From Sinosporangium siamense (lineage in GTDB: Bacteria; Actinomycetota; Actinomycetes; Streptosporangiales; Streptosporangiaceae), in the NCBI RefSeq assembly GCF_016863435.1, contig NZ_BOOW01000031.1, positions 1-64,000 on the forward strand: a stretch of 64,000 bases of DNA. The letters run 5' to 3'. Made by a program: the position numbers and the translations under genes. The notes under the pieces are model-generated. The model was not told the origin of the DNA. It made no database searches and worked only from the letters and a program-made list of their open reading frames with translations. Position 1 is the first letter of the stretch. Every line of letters starts with the position of its first letter. Positions 6,221 to 15,637 of the stretch are shown in pieces.

Positions 6221-8647
6221 TCAGCGCACCCGTTCAGGAGCCGCCGGCCGCGGCGGCGGAGGCGGCGGCTCGGCGGGCGGTTTCTTTCGGTGGGTGAAGG
6301 TGACGGCGAGGGTGAGCACGGCGGCGGCGAGCACCCCGAAGCCGACGGCGGTGAGATCGTTGATGGCGTTGCCCGGCTGGAGGGCGAACAGGGCGCGGGT
6401 CGGGGGCAGTGCCATCGCCAGCGCGAAGAGGCCGACCATGCTCGCGACGAGGATGACGCGCCACCAGGTCATCCGCCCGTCGGCGATGTAGGGACGGGCG
6501 ACCAGCACCAAGACCCACCAGGTGGCGACGAACAGGGTGATGACCCCCGCCGTGCGCGCGAAGGTCAGATCCGATGAACTCGACTGCGCCAGGGCGAACG
6601 ACGCGAATGTCGCGATCGCGCACGCCACTCCTGCGGGTACGGCGAGGCGCAGCACACGTGGCACAAAGCCTGTGCGTGCGCGCTCGTAGCTCGGGGCGAG
6701 GGCCAGGAAGAAGGCGGGGATGCCGATCGTCAGCGCGTTGACGAGCGTCGAGTGCCGGGGCGCGAAAGGGAAGGCGAGGCCGACGACGCCGGTCAGCAGG
6801 GACAAGACGATCGCGTAGAAGGTCTTGGTGAGGAAGAGCCCCGAGACCCGCTCGATGTTGGCGAGCACCCTGCGCCCTTCGCCGACGACGTGCGGGAGGG
6901 TGGCGAAGCTGTCGTCGAGGAGCACGACCTGGGCGACGGCCTTGGTCGCGCCGCTGCCGGAGCCCATGGCCACGCCGAGGTCGGCGTCCTTCAGGGCGAG
7001 TACGTCGTTGACGCCGTCGCCGGTCATCGCCACGGTGTGGCCGCGCGATTGCAGGGCGCCGACGAACAGGCGTTTCTGCTGCGGGGTGACACGTCCGAAG
7101 ACGGTGTGCGTTTCAAGGATCTCGGCGAGCTTGTCCTGGTCGTCCTCGGGGAGGGTGCGGGCGTCGACGGCGCGGTCGCCGCCGGGCACGTTGAGTGAGG
7201 TGGCGATGGCCGAGACGGATTCGGGGTTGTCGCCGGAGATGATCTTGAGGGTGACGTTCTGCCTGGCGAAGTAGGCGAGGGTGTCGGGGGCGTCGGGACG
7301 GATGCGCTGGCTGAGGGTGATGAGGGCGGCCGCATTGAGGGGGCCGAGGTCGTCGGGGCGGGCGAGCGCGCCGTCCCCGACATGGCAGAGCGCCAGCACA
7401 CGGAGGCCGGTGGCGGCCAGGTCGGCGGCTTTGCCGTACCCGGGAGTGCCGGGTTCGAGAAGGATGTCGGGGGCGCCGAGCACCCAGGAGCCGTGGGTCT
7501 CGAACTCGGTGCCGCTCCATTTGCGGGCGGAGGAGAAGGGCACGCTGGCCCGCGCGATCCAGCCGGGGGAGTCGGGGTAGCGCTGCCGCACCGCGAGGGC
7601 GGTCGCGTTGGGGCGGGGGTCGGCGTTGGCGAGGGCGCCGAGGGCGTCGGGCACGGGCAGGTCGTCGTCGAGGACGATGACCTCGGAGAGGTCCATGCCG
7701 CCCGCGGTGAGGGTGCCGGTTTTGTCGAGGCAGAGCACGTCGACGCGGGCCAGTCCCTCGATGGCGGGGAGCTCCTGGACGAGGCATTTGCGCTGGCCGA
7801 GGCGGACGACGCCGACGGCGAAGGCGATGCTGGTCATCAGCACGAGGCCCTCGGGGATCATCGTGACAATGCCGGCGACGGTACTGGTGAGGGCCTCGTC
7901 GAAGGTGGTGGCGCGGTTGAGCTGGCTGTAGATCAGCAGGAGACCGATGGGGATGACAAGCCAGGTGATGTACTTGATGAACTTGTTCACGCCGTCGCGC
8001 AGCTCGGAGTGCGCCAGGGCGAACTTGCTCGCCTCCTCCGCAAGCTTCGCGGCATATGCCTCTTTGCCGACCTTTGTCGCGACATAGATCCCGGTGCCTG
8101 CCACGACGAAACTGCCCGAAAGGACGGCGTCGCCGGGTTGCTTGTGCACCGAGTCGGCCTCGCCGGTCAGGAGCGACTCGTCGATCTCCAGCCCCGCCGA
8201 CGAGGTGACCTCGCCGTCGACGAGCAGGCGGTCGCCCGGTCCCAGCACGACCAGGTCGTCCAGCACGACCGTGCGCGGGGGGATCTCCAGCTCCGCTCCG
8301 TCGCGGCGGACGCGGACGGGCGCCTCGCCGACGACGGCGAGCCGGTCGAGGGTGCGCTTGGCGCGCAGCTCCTGCACGATGCCGATGGCGGAGTTGGCCA
8401 CGATGATCAGGCCGAACATGCCGTCCTGCCATTGGCCGAAGACGAGGATCAGCACCCACAACACGCCGATGACGGCGTTGAACAGTGTGAAGACGTTGGC
8501 ACGGATGATCGCCGACAACGACCGGCTGGATCTGCGGGGCAGATCGTTGACCTGCCCTAGAGAGACGCGCCTCGCCACCTCACCGGCGGTGAGTCCCGCC
8601 GTCAGCTGCCCCTGGGTTGCCACACCTACTCCCCCTGCGACCGTCAC
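6221..8647 (-). CDS. P-type cation-transporting ATPase (CtpE-like)
   Basis: An 808-aa P-type ATPase. It has the actuator loop LTGEAD (near residue 160), the transmembrane PEGL motif (about 262), the phosphorylation site DKTGTLT (Asp near 305), and the hinge MTGDGVNDVLALKDADLG (near 544). Several membrane helices flank these, with four or more in the C-terminal third. There is no N-terminal heavy-metal domain and no CPC motif, so it is not a heavy-metal pump. PEGL and overall length match mycobacterial CtpE, a calcium-uptake ATPase; the ion is inferred. The C-terminal tail is Pro-rich. It is 28 bases from plsX on the same strand. Confidence 0.93.
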   Translation of the reverse strand: MTVAGGVGVATQGQLTAGLTAGEVARRVSLGQVNDLPRRSSRSLSAIIRANVFTLFNAVIGVLWVLILVFGQWQDGMFGLIIVANSAIGIVQELRAKRTLDRLAVVGEAPVRVRRDGAELEIPPRTVVLDDLVVLGPGDRLLVDGEVTSSAGLEIDESLLTGEADSVHKQPGDAVLSGSFVVAGTGIYVATKVGKEAYAAKLAEEASKFALAHSELRDGVNKFIKYITWLVIPIGLLLIYSQLNRATTFDEALTSTVAGIVTMIPEGLVLMTSIAFAVGVVRLGQRKCLVQELPAIEGLARVDVLCLDKTGTLTAGGMDLSEVIVLDDDLPVPDALGALANADPRPNATALAVRQRYPDSPGWIARASVPFSSARKWSGTEFETHGSWVLGAPDILLEPGTPGYGKAADLAATGLRVLALCHVGDGALARPDDLGPLNAAALITLSQRIRPDAPDTLAYFARQNVTLKIISGDNPESVSAIATSLNVPGGDRAVDARTLPEDDQDKLAEILETHTVFGRVTPQQKRLFVGALQSRGHTVAMTGDGVNDVLALKDADLGVAMGSGSGATKAVAQVVLLDDSFATLPHVVGEGRRVLANIERVSGLFLTKTFYAIVLSLLTGVVGLAFPFAPRHSTLVNALTIGIPAFFLALAPSYERARTGFVPRVLRLAVPAGVACAIATFASFALAQSSSSDLTFARTAGVITLFVATWWVLVLVARPYIADGRMTWWRVILVASMVGLFALAMALPPTRALFALQPGNAINDLTAVGFGVLAAAVLTLAVTFTHRKKPPAEPPPPPPRPAAPERVR

Positions 8648-9719: not shown

Positions 9720-10204
9720 TCAGCCACCTCTGATGGGAAGCGAGCGTATCCATCCCGCTCCGCACCTGGGAGGGCGGTTCGGTGGACCCTGCGACCGTTG
9801 GTCGTGCGGTCCGGTCGGCGCCGGTCGCGCATCCCGGGGTGGTCAGGGTGATGGGAAATGCTCAGTCTCTCCGCATCGTAGGCAGGACGCTACCCCAGGT
9901 TGACCAGTGGGTAGCCGGAGACATGCTTCGATTCCCGCGCCGTGAGGTCAAAGGTGCGAGGGACATAGCCGGATGTCAGGTGTGAAGGCGGCTTCTGAGG
10001 GCAGGGAGCAAGGCGGCATGTGGGGGGTGACGTGAGGAAACCTCACTTAACCCGTTATTGACCAAGGTTTTGGACAAATGACCAAGGGCTGACCTGGTGC
10101 GGGAAGCGTCGGGGGAGCGGTACCGTCCGGGTATACGGGCTTTCTGCCTCACAACATCATCGAAGGGTCTATATCAGGCGAAAACCGCGAAGGGGACGTA
10201 CCTA
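9720..10204. other. Divergent intergenic region plsX / KamA
   Basis: About 485 bases separate divergent genes, so promoters for both should lie here. I see no conserved operator. AT-richer DNA near 10040-10080 is the likely promoter area of the KamA-type gene. Confidence 0.4.
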
Positions 10205-11527
10205 GTGATCCTTGATCAAAGGGGGGAGCGCCGATTTCGGGCGTACTCCACGAAGCATCTCGACGAGCTTCTTCAGCGTGCCGGCCTCGGCGATGAAGAG
10301 CGACTCCGGATCCGAGCGGTGGCGACCGTGTTGCCGTTCCGTACCAACTCCTATGTTGTGGAAGAGCTGATCGACTGGTCCCGGGTCCCCTCAGACCCGA
10401 TCTACCGGCTCGTCTTCCCCCAATCCGACATGCTGCCCGAAAGCGACGTCATACGACTCGCCACCCTTTTGCGCGACGGAGCCGCCCCGGCCGAGTTGCG
10501 TACGGCGGTGCACGAGGTGCGCATGCGACTCAACCCCCAGCCCGCAGGTCAGCTTGACCTCAACCTGCCCTACCTTGACTCGCAGCCGATGCCCGGCATG
10601 CAGCACAAATATCCCGAGACGCTGCTCTACTTCCCCAGACAAGGGCAGACGTGTCACGCCTACTGCACCTACTGCTTCCGCTGGGCGCAGTTCGTGGACG
10701 AACCCGAGCTCAAGATGGCCTCGGGCGACGTCGAGAACCTCGTGGCCTACCTCCGTGCCCACCCTGAGGTGACCAGCGTCCTGCTGACCGGTGGCGACCC
10801 GATGATCATGAGTGGGTCGGTGCTGGCACGTTATATCGAACCCCTGCTGGCACTCGACCAGCTCGAATCCATCCGGATCGGCACCAAGTCCCTGGCCTAC
10901 TGGCCACAGAGATTCCTCACCGACCCCGACGCCGACGAGACCCTGCGGTTGTTCGAACGTGTGGTGAAGAGCGGCAAGAACCTGGCGTTCATGGCGCACT
11001 TCTCGCACCCACGCGAGATGGAGACCGACCTGGTCGAACGGGCGGTGGCCGCCCTGCTCGGCACCGGCGCGGTCATCCGCACCCAGGCGCCACTGATCCG
11101 CACGATCAACGACCACCCGGACACGTGGTCGAACATGTGGCGGCACCAGGTCAGGCTGGGCATGGTGCCCTACTACATGTTCGTGGAACGTGACACCGGC
11201 CCGCAGGACTACTTCGCGGTGCCGCTCGCGCGAGCCTACGAGATCTTCCAGCGCGCCTACTCCGGCGTCTCCGGGCTGTGCCGTACGGTCCGGGGGCCCT
11301 CCATGTCCGCCACCCCCGGCAAGGTGTGCGTGGACGGCGTCGCGGAGATCGCCGGCCAGCGTGTGTTCGTCCTCCACCTCATTCAGGCCCGCGACCCCGA
11401 ACTGGTGGGGCGTCCCTTCTTCGCCCGCTTCGATCCCCAGGCCACCTGGCTCACCGATCTCCGCCCGGCATTCGCGGACCGATTCCCCTTCGATCCCGCC
11501 GCCCCGGCGAGACGAATCTCCGCCTGA
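10205..11527 (+). CDS. KamA-family radical SAM protein (lysine 2,3-aminomutase-like)
   Basis: A 440-aa radical SAM enzyme of the KamA (lysine 2,3-aminomutase) family. The iron-sulfur signature C-X3-C-X2-C is CHAYCTYC near residue 150, followed by the SAM-binding LTGGDPM loop. The C-terminal part carries GPQDYFAVPLARAYEIF and SGLCRTVRGPSMS, as in the family. Lysine or a lysyl side chain is the likely substrate type, but the reaction cannot be fixed. I place the start at the GTG at 10205, preceded by GAAGGGG, because homology begins near RFRAYSTKHLDEL; the frame is open to 10097. No kamD/E or EF-P genes are near. Confidence 0.85.
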   Translation: MILDQRGERRFRAYSTKHLDELLQRAGLGDEERLRIRAVATVLPFRTNSYVVEELIDWSRVPSDPIYRLVFPQSDMLPESDVIRLATLLRDGAAPAELRTAVHEVRMRLNPQPAGQLDLNLPYLDSQPMPGMQHKYPETLLYFPRQGQTCHAYCTYCFRWAQFVDEPELKMASGDVENLVAYLRAHPEVTSVLLTGGDPMIMSGSVLARYIEPLLALDQLESIRIGTKSLAYWPQRFLTDPDADETLRLFERVVKSGKNLAFMAHFSHPREMETDLVERAVAALLGTGAVIRTQAPLIRTINDHPDTWSNMWRHQVRLGMVPYYMFVERDTGPQDYFAVPLARAYEIFQRAYSGVSGLCRTVRGPSMSATPGKVCVDGVAEIAGQRVFVLHLIQARDPELVGRPFFARFDPQATWLTDLRPAFADRFPFDPAAPARRISA

Positions 11528-11642: not shown

Positions 11643-11670
11643 GACCGGCATTTCTGTGCCGGTCTTTTTT
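11643..11670 (+). terminator. Rho-independent terminator after the KamA-type gene
   Basis: A perfect 8-bp stem (GACCGGCA at 11643-11650, TGCCGGTC at 11657-11664) with a six-base loop is followed by six Ts. This is among the best intrinsic terminators in the window. Confidence 0.85.
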
Positions 11671-12149
11671 CTATGCGGCCGAGGCGGTATCGCGCGGTCG
11701 GCCGGAGGTCGCGGGCGCGGGGGAGCAAGGGCCATTCTTTGCCGTGCTGTCGTTTATTTCGCGCTGGATTGGAAGGGGGTGTGCAAGTCATCACAAATCG
11801 CCGCTGAACTGGTCGTACGTCGGGCAGGAGGTCCTTGGGCGCCGCCTCTCGCGGTGATACAAATACCCGAGCAAGTGAGCCGGAGCGCACACCCTGTGGA
11901 TGGTGCCCCACAGCGAGCGCTTTTCGTCCCTCACTGCGATTTCACCGGTCGTCCGGCGTCGGTCGGGTGGTTCACCCGGCCGCCGTCGGCATCCGGAGCG
12001 GACTCGCCGGTCGGGATGAAGAATGCTCAGTGTCGTCGCCGGTTTACGGGGGATTTGATTCACCTTTCAATGTGTCCTTCTCGCAGGCAGCCACGTCTTC
12101 CGGGATGGGTGCGGAGAAAGGGGATCACATAACAAGCCGGGAGGCATTG
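11671..12149. other. Leader region of the repeat-protein gene
   Basis: About 480 bases with no supported gene. The frame of the following gene stays open back to 11835, but those codons read Arg/Ser/Pro-rich and lack the strong bias of the true gene. The region presumably holds the promoter and a long leader. Confidence 0.45.
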
Positions 12150-14267
12150 ATGAATAGAGCGCTTCAGGTGGCGGTGGCCACGGCGGGCTTCGGTCTCGCC
12201 GCTGCCTTCGCCACGCCGGTCCAGGCGCAGGTCGCTCCGAACGAGCACGGCCCCCTTCCGGGCGAGGTAGTCGCTCCGTCGAAGGCCGTGAAGTTCCACC
12301 CCGGAAGCATGCGCGACCGGGGCATGGTCACTCACAAGCCGGGCTCTCCGTTGCCCAGCGCGGGCACGCCTGCCCAGATCGGTCACCATGGCGCGCTCCA
12401 GTCCAAGGAGTCCGTCGGCGCGGTCCAGGACCGTGGCTCGATGTGGGCTCATGAGATGTCGCAGCCGGGACGTGACGTCCTGGCTCCGGCACAGCAGCAC
12501 GGAACCATGATCCGGGACATGGCTCACGCCGAGAGCGTGGTCCGGGACATGGCTCAGGCGCCCAAGGGTGAGATCCACAAGGGTGAGGCTCACCAGGGTG
12601 AGGCCTTCCGTCCGTTCGAGGCCCACCAGGGTGAGGCCAAGCCGGCGGAGGCCCATCGGGGCGAGGCTCAGCAGTGGCAGGCCCACCGGGGTGAGGCTCA
12701 GCAGCATGAGGCTCAGCAGGGCGAGGCTCAGCAGGGCGAGGCCAGGCCGTTCGAGGCTCACGCCAAGCCGGCCGGGGCTCACCAGGGCGAGGCTCAGCAG
12801 GGCGAGGCCAGGCCGTTCGAGGCTCACGCCAAGCCGGCCGAGGCTCACAAGGGTGAGGCTCAGCAGTGGCAGGCCCACGCCAAGCCGGCCGAGGCTCACC
12901 AGGCTCAGCCGTTCGCTCACCAGGCTCAGCCGTTCGAGGCTCACCAGGGTCACGCCAAGCCGTTCCAGGCTCACCAGGGTGAGGCCAAGCCGTTCGAGGC
13001 TCACGCCAAGCCGGCGGAGGCCCACAAGGGCGAGGCTCAGCACTGGCAGCAGGCTCAGCACTGGCAGCAGGCTCAGCAGGGTGAGGCCCACAAGGGTGAG
13101 GCCCAGCGTGTTCACGCCCAGCCGGCGCAGATTCAGCAGATCAAGCAGATCCGCGTCCACCGGGCCGAGCCTGTGCACGGCCGGTTCCAGCAGGGACCGA
13201 TCCAGCAGGCCGCCGTCCGGGCGCCGCACCCGGCCAAGGACGTGCCGGCGTCGGCTCACGCCGTGGTCCGTCACCCGGGGCACCCCGGGACGATGGTCCA
13301 GGGCAAGGCCGCCGTCGAGCCCAGGCCGGCTCACGCGATGCCCATTGCGGGCATCCGTGACATGCCATCCGCGGCTCATGGCATGATCGAGGCCGCCCGT
13401 CCCGAGGTCCGCCACGCGGCCCCCGCCATGCCCCAGGGCATGCAGGAGGCCGTGAAGCCGGCGCAGCACATGGCGGGGCCCGTTCCCGCCCACGCGCCGG
13501 CCGTCAATGAGGCGTCGAAGGCGTGGGAGGCTCACGCCTCCCACGCCCGTCCCATGGCGCAGGAGCCTTCCCAGCAGGTCGCCGGGCAGCAGCCCGCGGC
13601 CGCGCAGGAGGCTTCCCGCCCGTGGGCAGCCCAGCCCGCCGCCGAGCACATTCGTCCCTGGGCTCAGGAATCGTCGAGTGTCGCTCCCAAGGCTCAGGAG
13701 GCCCACAAGAGCCTTCCTTGGGCCGAGCAGGGCAAGACCGAGCCGGTCGTCTGGGCGTGGTCGGTAGCCAAGCCGTCTGGAGTCACCGGAGCCGCGGCCG
13801 CGGCTGCGCTCCAGGACTGTATGTTCAAGGCGGTTCGGGGCATCGGTGTGGTGCTGGGCGAGATGCACCACGAGATGGACCGCATCATCCGCGCGATGGG
13901 CGCTCCGGCCGCCTCGCAGGCGACCTCGGTGAAGGCACCCGCCGCCGCTGAGGCCGCCACCGCCGCGGCCCCGGCCGTGGCGGAGGTCGCGTCCCAGGCG
14001 CAGCAGGCCGTTGAGGCGGCTCCTGCTGTGGCCGAGGCCGGTGCCAAGGCCGAGCAGGCCGCCGCCGTCGTGGCTCCGGCCGTGGCGGAGGGCGCGTCCA
14101 AGGCTCAGGAAGGCGCCGCGCCGACGGTCGAGGCCGCCAAGGGCACAGTGGCCGACAAGGCCAAGGCTGTGCAGCAGGCCGATAAGGCCAAGGCTGTGCA
14201 GGAGGCCGGCTCGATCGTCGAGTCCGCCTCGGCCAAGAAGATGGTCGAGACCGCCTCCGGCCGCTGA
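12150..14267 (+). CDS. Secreted pentapeptide-repeat (EAHxG-type) protein of unknown function
   Basis: This 705-aa exported protein matches no family I know. A signal peptide spans residues 1 to about 26 (MNRALQVAVATAGFG, then a hydrophobic run to TPVQAQ). Residues about 140-325 are five-residue repeats of the form [EQ]A[HQKR]xx (EAHQG, EAKPA, EAQQG, EARPF), rich in His, Gln and Glu. Residues 330-550 are Pro/His/Ala-rich with scattered PWA motifs. A short segment with the only Cys of the mature protein (near 556) precedes a helix (VVLGEMHHEMDRIIRAMG). The last 115 residues are Ala/Glu/Lys-rich amphipathic repeats (AVAEVASQAQQ, TVADKAKAVQQ), resembling LEA or apolipoprotein helices. GGGAGG lies 5 bases before the ATG. 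It is monocistronic and followed by two hairpins. A cell-surface or matrix role is guesswork. Confidence 0.85.
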   Translation: MNRALQVAVATAGFGLAAAFATPVQAQVAPNEHGPLPGEVVAPSKAVKFHPGSMRDRGMVTHKPGSPLPSAGTPAQIGHHGALQSKESVGAVQDRGSMWAHEMSQPGRDVLAPAQQHGTMIRDMAHAESVVRDMAQAPKGEIHKGEAHQGEAFRPFEAHQGEAKPAEAHRGEAQQWQAHRGEAQQHEAQQGEAQQGEARPFEAHAKPAGAHQGEAQQGEARPFEAHAKPAEAHKGEAQQWQAHAKPAEAHQAQPFAHQAQPFEAHQGHAKPFQAHQGEAKPFEAHAKPAEAHKGEAQHWQQAQHWQQAQQGEAHKGEAQRVHAQPAQIQQIKQIRVHRAEPVHGRFQQGPIQQAAVRAPHPAKDVPASAHAVVRHPGHPGTMVQGKAAVEPRPAHAMPIAGIRDMPSAAHGMIEAARPEVRHAAPAMPQGMQEAVKPAQHMAGPVPAHAPAVNEASKAWEAHASHARPMAQEPSQQVAGQQPAAAQEASRPWAAQPAAEHIRPWAQESSSVAPKAQEAHKSLPWAEQGKTEPVVWAWSVAKPSGVTGAAAAAALQDCMFKAVRGIGVVLGEMHHEMDRIIRAMGAPAASQATSVKAPAAAEAATAAAPAVAEVASQAQQAVEAAPAVAEAGAKAEQAAAVVAPAVAEGASKAQEGAAPTVEAAKGTVADKAKAVQQADKAKAVQEAGSIVESASAKKMVETASGR
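12723..12839 (+). repeat. 66-bp tandem duplication inside the repeat-protein gene
   Basis: A 51-base block beginning GAGGCTCAGCAGGGCGAGG occurs identically at 12723-12773 and 12789-12839, a 66-base (22-codon) period. It shows that the repeat region grows by in-frame duplication at the DNA level. Confidence 0.85.
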
Positions 14268-14390: not shown

Positions 14391-14425
14391 CCGGTGGCCC
14401 AGGGGAATCCCCCCTGGGCCACCGG
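14391..14425 (+). terminator. Strong 15-bp hairpin
   Basis: A perfect 15-bp stem (14391-14405 with 14411-14425) with a five-base loop lies between the repeat-protein gene and the minus-strand genes to its right. It has no clear T run and may act in both directions as a transcription barrier. Confidence 0.6.
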
Positions 14426-15007: not shown

Positions 15008-15583
15008 TCAGAGTTCGTAAACCGGTGCGATGTAGCCCCTGGCCAGCGTGTTGGCCGTGATGTTGAAGCCCACGACCGCCGGTGGCGCGTCGCTGTCGAC
15101 GCCGAGTGTGTCGGCCGCGAGGGCGTGCACCGTGAACAGGTAGCGGTGCGGGGAACCCGGCGGAGGGGCGGCTCCGCCGTACTCTTTCCTGCTGTAGTCG
15201 TTGCGCGCGTGGATCGCGCCCGGCGGCAGGCCCTTGAAGTCGCCGCCGCCCGCGCCGGCGGGCAGCTCGGTGATCTCCGGCGGCAGATCGAACAGGACCC
15301 AGTGCCAGAAACCGCTGCCCGTGGGAGCGTCGGGGTCGAAGCACGTGACGGCGTAGCTCCGGGTGCCGGCGGGGGCGCCGCTCCAGCGCAGGTGGGGGGA
15401 GATGTTCTGCCCCGTCATGCCCCAGTCGTTGAAGACGTGCTTGTCCGCGAGGCGCTCGCCGTCTCGGATGTCGTCGCTCTCGACGGTGAGGACGGGCACT
15501 TCGGGCAGGTAGTCGTAGGGGATAGGTGGTTGCTTGGGCACCGCTGGCCTCCCGGCGGACGTTGATCGATGGTCGTGAACCAT
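15008..15583 (-). CDS. YbhB/YbcL-type PEBP (Raf kinase inhibitor-like) protein
   Basis: A 191-aa phosphatidylethanolamine-binding-protein family member of the bacterial YbhB/YbcL type. The ligand pocket motifs are visible: CFDPDAPTGSGFWHWVLFDLP (the DPDAP and WHW signatures) and YGGAAPPPGSPHRYLFTVHAL (the G-x-x-P-P-x-G-x-H-R-Y motif). No signal peptide is seen, so it is probably cytosolic. The frame extends to a TTG at 15610; I prefer the ATG at 15583. It is on the same strand as the exporter genes. Its physiological role is unknown for most bacterial members. Confidence 0.92.
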   Translation of the reverse strand: MVHDHRSTSAGRPAVPKQPPIPYDYLPEVPVLTVESDDIRDGERLADKHVFNDWGMTGQNISPHLRWSGAPAGTRSYAVTCFDPDAPTGSGFWHWVLFDLPPEITELPAGAGGGDFKGLPPGAIHARNDYSRKEYGGAAPPPGSPHRYLFTVHALAADTLGVDSDAPPAVVGFNITANTLARGYIAPVYEL

Positions 15584-15637
15584 CTTGGTCGTCCGCCGGT
15601 CGGCGTACAAACGTGTGTACGGCGGGGCGCGGGCGGC

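Follow-up and report, generated by a model that had tools for sequence, protein, structure and literature searches.

A fixed genomic slot, upstream box, and signal peptide with differing secreted proteins in Streptosporangiaceae, including a repeat-rich protein of Sinosporangium siamense

Results

Gene X and its product

The window, i.e., the whole stretch of 64,000 nt of Sinosporangium siamense DNA that was analyzed, contains a gene, here called gene X, which lies between a radical-SAM gene and a PEBP/YbhB-like gene on the opposite strand (Table 1). The initial annotation had described its product as a signal peptide, a pentapeptide tract, a Pro/His-rich middle, and a helical tail, and this layout of the open reading frame was confirmed.

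Table 1. Features at the gene X locus (positions in the window)
Feature	Position	Strand	Basis or remark
Radical-SAM (lysine-2,3-aminomutase-like) gene, upstream slot anchor	10097..11527	+	Pfam Radical_SAM E=4.6e-5, below cut-off
Hairpin + T6, terminator of the upstream gene	11643..11670	+	Read from sequence; stem also reported on - strand
Conserved box GGTGATACAAATAC (consensus RGTGATASAAMTNC), 297 bp 5′ of start codon	11853..11866	+	
Conserved leader, probable 5′-UTR	11853..12149	+	S. album similarity
Gene X, secreted protein, 705 aa	12150..14267	+	ORF list and ortholog L003:8420-10858
Signal peptide MNRALQVAVATAGFGLAAAFATPVQAQ, residues 1-27, Sec-type	12150..12230	+	S. album identity 25/27; family consensus
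Mature N-terminal segment with (V)RDMAHA mini-repeats, kept within genus	12231..12560	+	
Pentapeptide tract [EQ]A[HQKR]xx, His/Gln-rich, residues about 138-330	12561..13139	+	
In-frame tandem duplication of 66 bp, 2.5 copies	12708..12875	+	TRF and offset matching
Pro/His/Ala-rich middle, predicted disordered	13140..13736	+	AlphaFold2
C-terminal block EPVVWAWSVAKPSGV...MHHEMDRIIRAMG, amphipathic helix, kept within genus	13737..13916	+	
Ala/Val/Lys/Glu amphipathic helical tail	13917..14264	+	Hydrophobic moment; low-confidence helix prediction
Strong hairpin with weak T-run, probable terminator downstream of X	14391..14425	+	Read from sequence
PEBP/YbhB-like gene, downstream slot anchor	15008..15610	-	Pfam PBP E=1.8e-37; recurring neighbour in other genera

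The tract motif [EQ]A[HQKR] was found 34 times, compared with 8.7 ± 2.8 times in 2000 shuffles (maximum 18). The spacing was five residues in 19 cases, and the register was broken by steps of 6, 7, and 12 residues. The tract is real, but the previously given number of about 37 five-residue units was slightly high. The in-frame duplication was verified, as 92 of 100 bases agreed at an offset of 66 and TRF reported a period of 66 at 93%, and this supports the view that the tract is evolving by repeat gain. The amphipathic character of the Ala/Lys/Glu tail was also borne out, its hydrophobic moment being equalled by only 1 of 500 shuffles. The AlphaFold2 models were of low confidence (pLDDT 36 and 43, the former being the mean for the whole gene X protein); the middle was nearly devoid of secondary structure, and the tail helices were predicted with low confidence. 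The sortase motif L[PA]xTG is absent from both Sinosporangium proteins.

The gene had been described as self-contained and framed by strong terminators. The hairpin with T6 upstream is convincing, but the downstream hairpin, though strong, shows a weak T-run, and the terminator scan did not report it.

The codon choice of gene X resembles that of EF-Tu and ribosomal genes: CAA was used in 0 of 76 cases, AAA in 0 of 36, and GAA in 2 of 57, while GGT and CGT were raised. This hints at high expression. However, the CAI was only slightly raised (0.633 compared with an expected 0.574), and because it barely exceeds expectation, high abundance is not established.

The ortholog in Sinosporangium album

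In Sinosporangium album (contig NZ_FNCN01000016), the one other Sinosporangium genome compared, gene X is found at the same place. The syntenic ortholog (P0002) has 812 aa and retains the signal peptide, the N-terminal segment, the C-terminal block (21 of 53 aligned residues identical), and the style of the tail. Codons 1-27 of the two genes differ at one first, one second, and five third positions. For residues 1-140, 131 codons could be aligned, of which 53 were identical, 27 synonymous, and 51 non-synonymous, so that the same residue is encoded in 80 of 131 cases. Judged from these substitution patterns, the gene X frame is coding.

The repeat regions of the two proteins did not correspond. 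The S. album protein contains unrelated units, HVAKPEHIVRAEQ-type 12-13-mers within super-repeats of 38/75 residues. Because the repeats of the ortholog are entirely different, the pentapeptide is a recent, species-level feature, and on this comparison the EAHxG chemistry is the least conserved feature of gene X and not its defining one.

A slot with a replaceable secreted protein

Protein searches with the gene X product in 60 relatives yielded S. album as the sole match. Because these searches gave nothing outside the genus, the locus was located by synteny. The order plsX(-), radical-SAM(+), X(+), PEBP(-) is present in the window, in S. album, and in other genera, and relatives of the radical-SAM gene occur in 46 of 61 family genomes. 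The DNA downstream of this anchor was read in 40 other family genomes, and in 9 of them the slot encodes another secreted protein, 150-320 aa long, whose signal peptide is nearly constant. Together with the loci found by the box search described below, a secreted X gene occupies the slot in at least 15 soil-bacterial genera of the Streptosporangiaceae (g1, g4, g5, g15, g22, g27, g33, g34, g59, g65, g72, g79, g80, g82, and g86), and 59 X proteins were collected; both numbers are our own tally. Gene X is thus self-contained, as described, yet it does not stand alone: it belongs to a positional family with representatives in many genera. Among the papers searched, none describes the locus.

The signal peptides of the 59 proteins follow the consensus M[KN]R..KAAV...G.AA...PAQA. 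That of gene X, MNRALQVAVATAGFGLAAAFATPVQA, fits with substitutions at positions 4-7 and with PVQA (V for A), and reached 58.6% over 29 aa in comparison with the locus L015. The mature parts could be aligned within clades only, with no alignment between clades, and residues 27-705 of gene X align with S. album alone among the slot members. Because the clades generally have no mature part in common, the positional orthology of gene X rests on position, box, and signal peptide. Conservation across the slot covers these three features and the ribosome-binding region.

The pentapeptide tract is absent from X of the other genera. There, some proteins are rich in Gly, Ala, and Leu and show helix-type periodicity, and the others are rich in Ala, Val, Thr, and Asn and show strand-type alternation; the mature parts are low in Cys across clades. 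Almost every X protein is periodically amphipathic, in one type or the other. In comparison with composition-matched shuffles, helix-type amphipathicity exceeded a z of 2 in 39 of 59 proteins and strand-type amphipathicity in 26 of 59, counts in which some proteins appear in both types and relatives are not independent. The Sinosporangium pair is helix-type, with z values of 4.2 and 3.5.

The large genus g86 (L101, L099, and others) lacks the radical-SAM gene, and plsX lies directly upstream of X; PEBP follows downstream where the locus extends that far. X is independent of its radical-SAM neighbour because the g86 loci keep X and plsX without it. One of the 59 proteins is encoded off-slot: L139:628-2400 (G124:C56) is a box-led gene for a secreted, Gly-rich protein of 554 aa. 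In the G124 genome the usual slot holds X as well, and L139 is a possible paralog or regulon member.

The upstream box and the leader

The exact box pattern GGTGATASAAATNC has a single match in the whole 8.86-Mb genome. All 9 anchored X loci and both Sinosporangium loci have the box (R)GTGRTASAAMTNC, and none of the 31 anchored loci that lack X has it, the pattern having been derived from those same anchored loci. An independent test was the search of 299 family genomes with RGTGATASAAMTNC, which gave matches in 102 genomes and 24 of 68 genera. By our own count from the table, these are about 113 places, compared with about 45 for the reversed pattern. Where the surroundings were read, most matches precede the same kind of gene, an ORF with a signal peptide, by 103-149 bp, and the neighbourhood is the same. 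The 14-nt box probably serves gene X alone, as a promoter or as the target of a regulator. One candidate is an extended -10-like element (TGATAGAAAT), another a regulator site; the loci showed no shared -35 element. At L120 and L145, a box-like AGTGATA[GC]AACTAC precedes the gene of another secreted protein (MRS..RAT...GGGCLAEGQ) by 77-90 bp, which may be a chance match. The unrelated locus L122:2950-3000 contains an inverted repeat, GGTGATACAA...TTGTATCACC, that resembles an operator or hairpin.

The region 11830-11930 is 89% identical to S. album, which is above the value for the coding sequence as a whole. It includes a hairpin (11884-11921) followed by T4 (through 11924), and by eye its pairs change together in S. 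album. Hairpin and T4 are a possible Sinosporangium-specific attenuator. The short leader blocks TGTGGTGCCC and CCGG..GGGGGATT.GATTC are found again, in unchanged order, in genus g4, and an alignment of the Sinosporangium and g4 leaders gave no convincing common structure. Past the box, 3 of 57 local alignments with leaders of other genera beat 40 shuffles, and the likeness outside the box is suggestive only. In clades outside Sinosporangium, one leader hairpin contains a pair that covaries, being UA in 8 sequences and CG in 6. The leader matched no Rfam family. A weak leader match in a distant genome (L007) sits inside a monooxygenase gene and was rejected.

Discussion

A candidate coat protein and its alternatives

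The stronger finding is the slot and not the repeat: by sequence comparison, one address, one box, and one signal peptide are kept, and the mature protein is rewritten between clades. This combination of a fixed export and expression module with a replaced mature part suggests a fast-evolving cell-surface coat protein. With a predicted Sec-type signal peptide, X is taken to be secreted; its location at the surface or in the extracellular matrix, and its self-association or polymer binding, we infer. For gene X, a secreted, largely disordered, amphipathic, and repeat-rich protein, the leading explanation, to which we give about half of our confidence, is that it coats the hyphal or the spore/sporangial surface. 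Among the roles proposed in the initial annotation, the surface polymer or coat fits best.

We propose that exported X would be retained at the wall or within the extracellular matrix, where its amphipathic segments would self-associate or bind envelope polymers. Selection would target the bulk physical character of the protein and not its exact sequence, and therefore slippage and unequal recombination would be free to rewrite the repeats. In Sinosporangium, the His/Gln-rich tract may render assembly sensitive to pH or metal ions. A wider and more tentative proposal, which we regard as possible though rather doubtful, is that X represents an undescribed exoskeletal class of the Streptosporangiaceae, with conserved locus, box, and signal peptide, in which an amphipathic coat protein was exchanged again and again, at times with a change between helix-type and strand-type repeats, and function would be kept without homology of sequence or fold.

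The His content of the Sinosporangium pair (6.9% and 8.8%), which peaks in the repeat tract, would also suit a secreted metal-binding protein that traps Zn, Cu, or Ni extracellularly or within the wall. However, the other 57 slot members contain at most 2.7% His, and because only the Sinosporangium pair is His-rich, metal binding is unlikely as the ancestral role. In addition, the His residues are interspersed with Gln, Glu, and Pro without HxH or HHH clusters, and no neighbour is a clear metal-uptake or metal-regulator gene (a P-type ATPase gene lies at 6221-8647). We consider this explanation unlikely.

A mature part that turns over quickly while the module for its export and expression stays constant could be expected for an adhesin or matrix protein that is diversified by biotic interaction with phage, predators, or hosts, its repeats serving as decoys or binding sites. 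Yet there is no recognised folded binding domain. Pfam gave nothing besides GETHR at E<=1 for the gene X protein, i.e., no LEA, ChpA-C, or A(D/N)Lxx model, and sequence searches of NCBIfam, PHROGs, PADLOC, and PDB gave no match. An adhesin thus seems quite unlikely.

A desiccation-protective, LEA-like extracellular protein is very unlikely. The Ala/Lys/Glu amphipathic tail and the predicted disorder would be in agreement with it, but the LEA likeness formerly seen in the tail was not supported, as there is no Pfam LEA match and the 11-residue periodicity (0.22) is not above those of 7 or 9 residues (0.26). Furthermore, many proteins of the slot are of the strand type or are hydrophobic and rich in Gly and Leu.

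That the protein matches no family was formally wrong, because GETHR (PF05671) reached 32.1 bits at a curated cut-off of 22.4 (E=7.4e-8). GETHR has been recorded in numerous proteins of apicomplexans as a domain whose function is unknown (PMC2575384), and its model is a low-complexity one of 25 positions that shares with gene X a five-residue unit containing G-E. In contrast to a family trait, the match tracks the local pentapeptide only: the ortholog P0002 does not match, and a whole-genome search with the model gave nothing at E<=0.01. For these reasons the likeness is superficial, in our reading a convergence of a short low-complexity model, and true membership with a shared function is highly improbable and largely refuted. 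A spurious ORF in a GC-rich repeat region is rejected on present evidence. An ORF of 603 aa does overlap on the reverse strand, but the substitutions are biased towards third positions, and the signal peptide, the leader, the ribosome-binding site, and the synteny are conserved.

Should X be a coat protein, the slot would be a natural replacement series, in which expression signal, export signal, and address are fixed and the structural protein is swapped. It could then be asked which properties (amphipathic period, Ala, charge, His) an actinomycete surface layer needs. The 14-nt box offers a handle for genes that are missed by homology searches.

Comparison with known systems

The A(D/N)Lxx pentapeptide repeat forms the MfpA/Qnr-type beta-helix. 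The gene X tract shares its period of five, but it has no central L/F and no such Pfam match and is predicted to be disordered, so that it is distinct from this class, as had been noted.

Chaplins (PF03777) and other amphipathic exoskeletal proteins have been reviewed (PMC4255298). Like X, chaplins are secreted, amphipathic, and found in mycelial actinomycetes, and strand-type X proteins have alternating hydrophobic residues; unlike them, X has no ChpA-C match. X was considered as a chaplin substitute and rejected, because X-bearing genomes also contain chaplins. A frame of the S. siamense genome itself (G000:C30:329637-330098; about 713 aa) carries several ChpA-C domains, and many relatives have similar frames, 600-800 aa long, with multiple chaplin domains.

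SspA of Actinoplanes missouriensis is a disordered spore-wall/surface protein that is required for robust sporangia (PMC13293333). As described there, SspA is, like X, a secreted protein of a sporangial actinomycete with a mature part predicted to be disordered and without known domains; in contrast to X, which has no sortase motif, it is sortase-anchored and has been reported from Micromonosporaceae only. Likened by description, SspA is the nearest characterised analogue of X, by analogy and not by membership.
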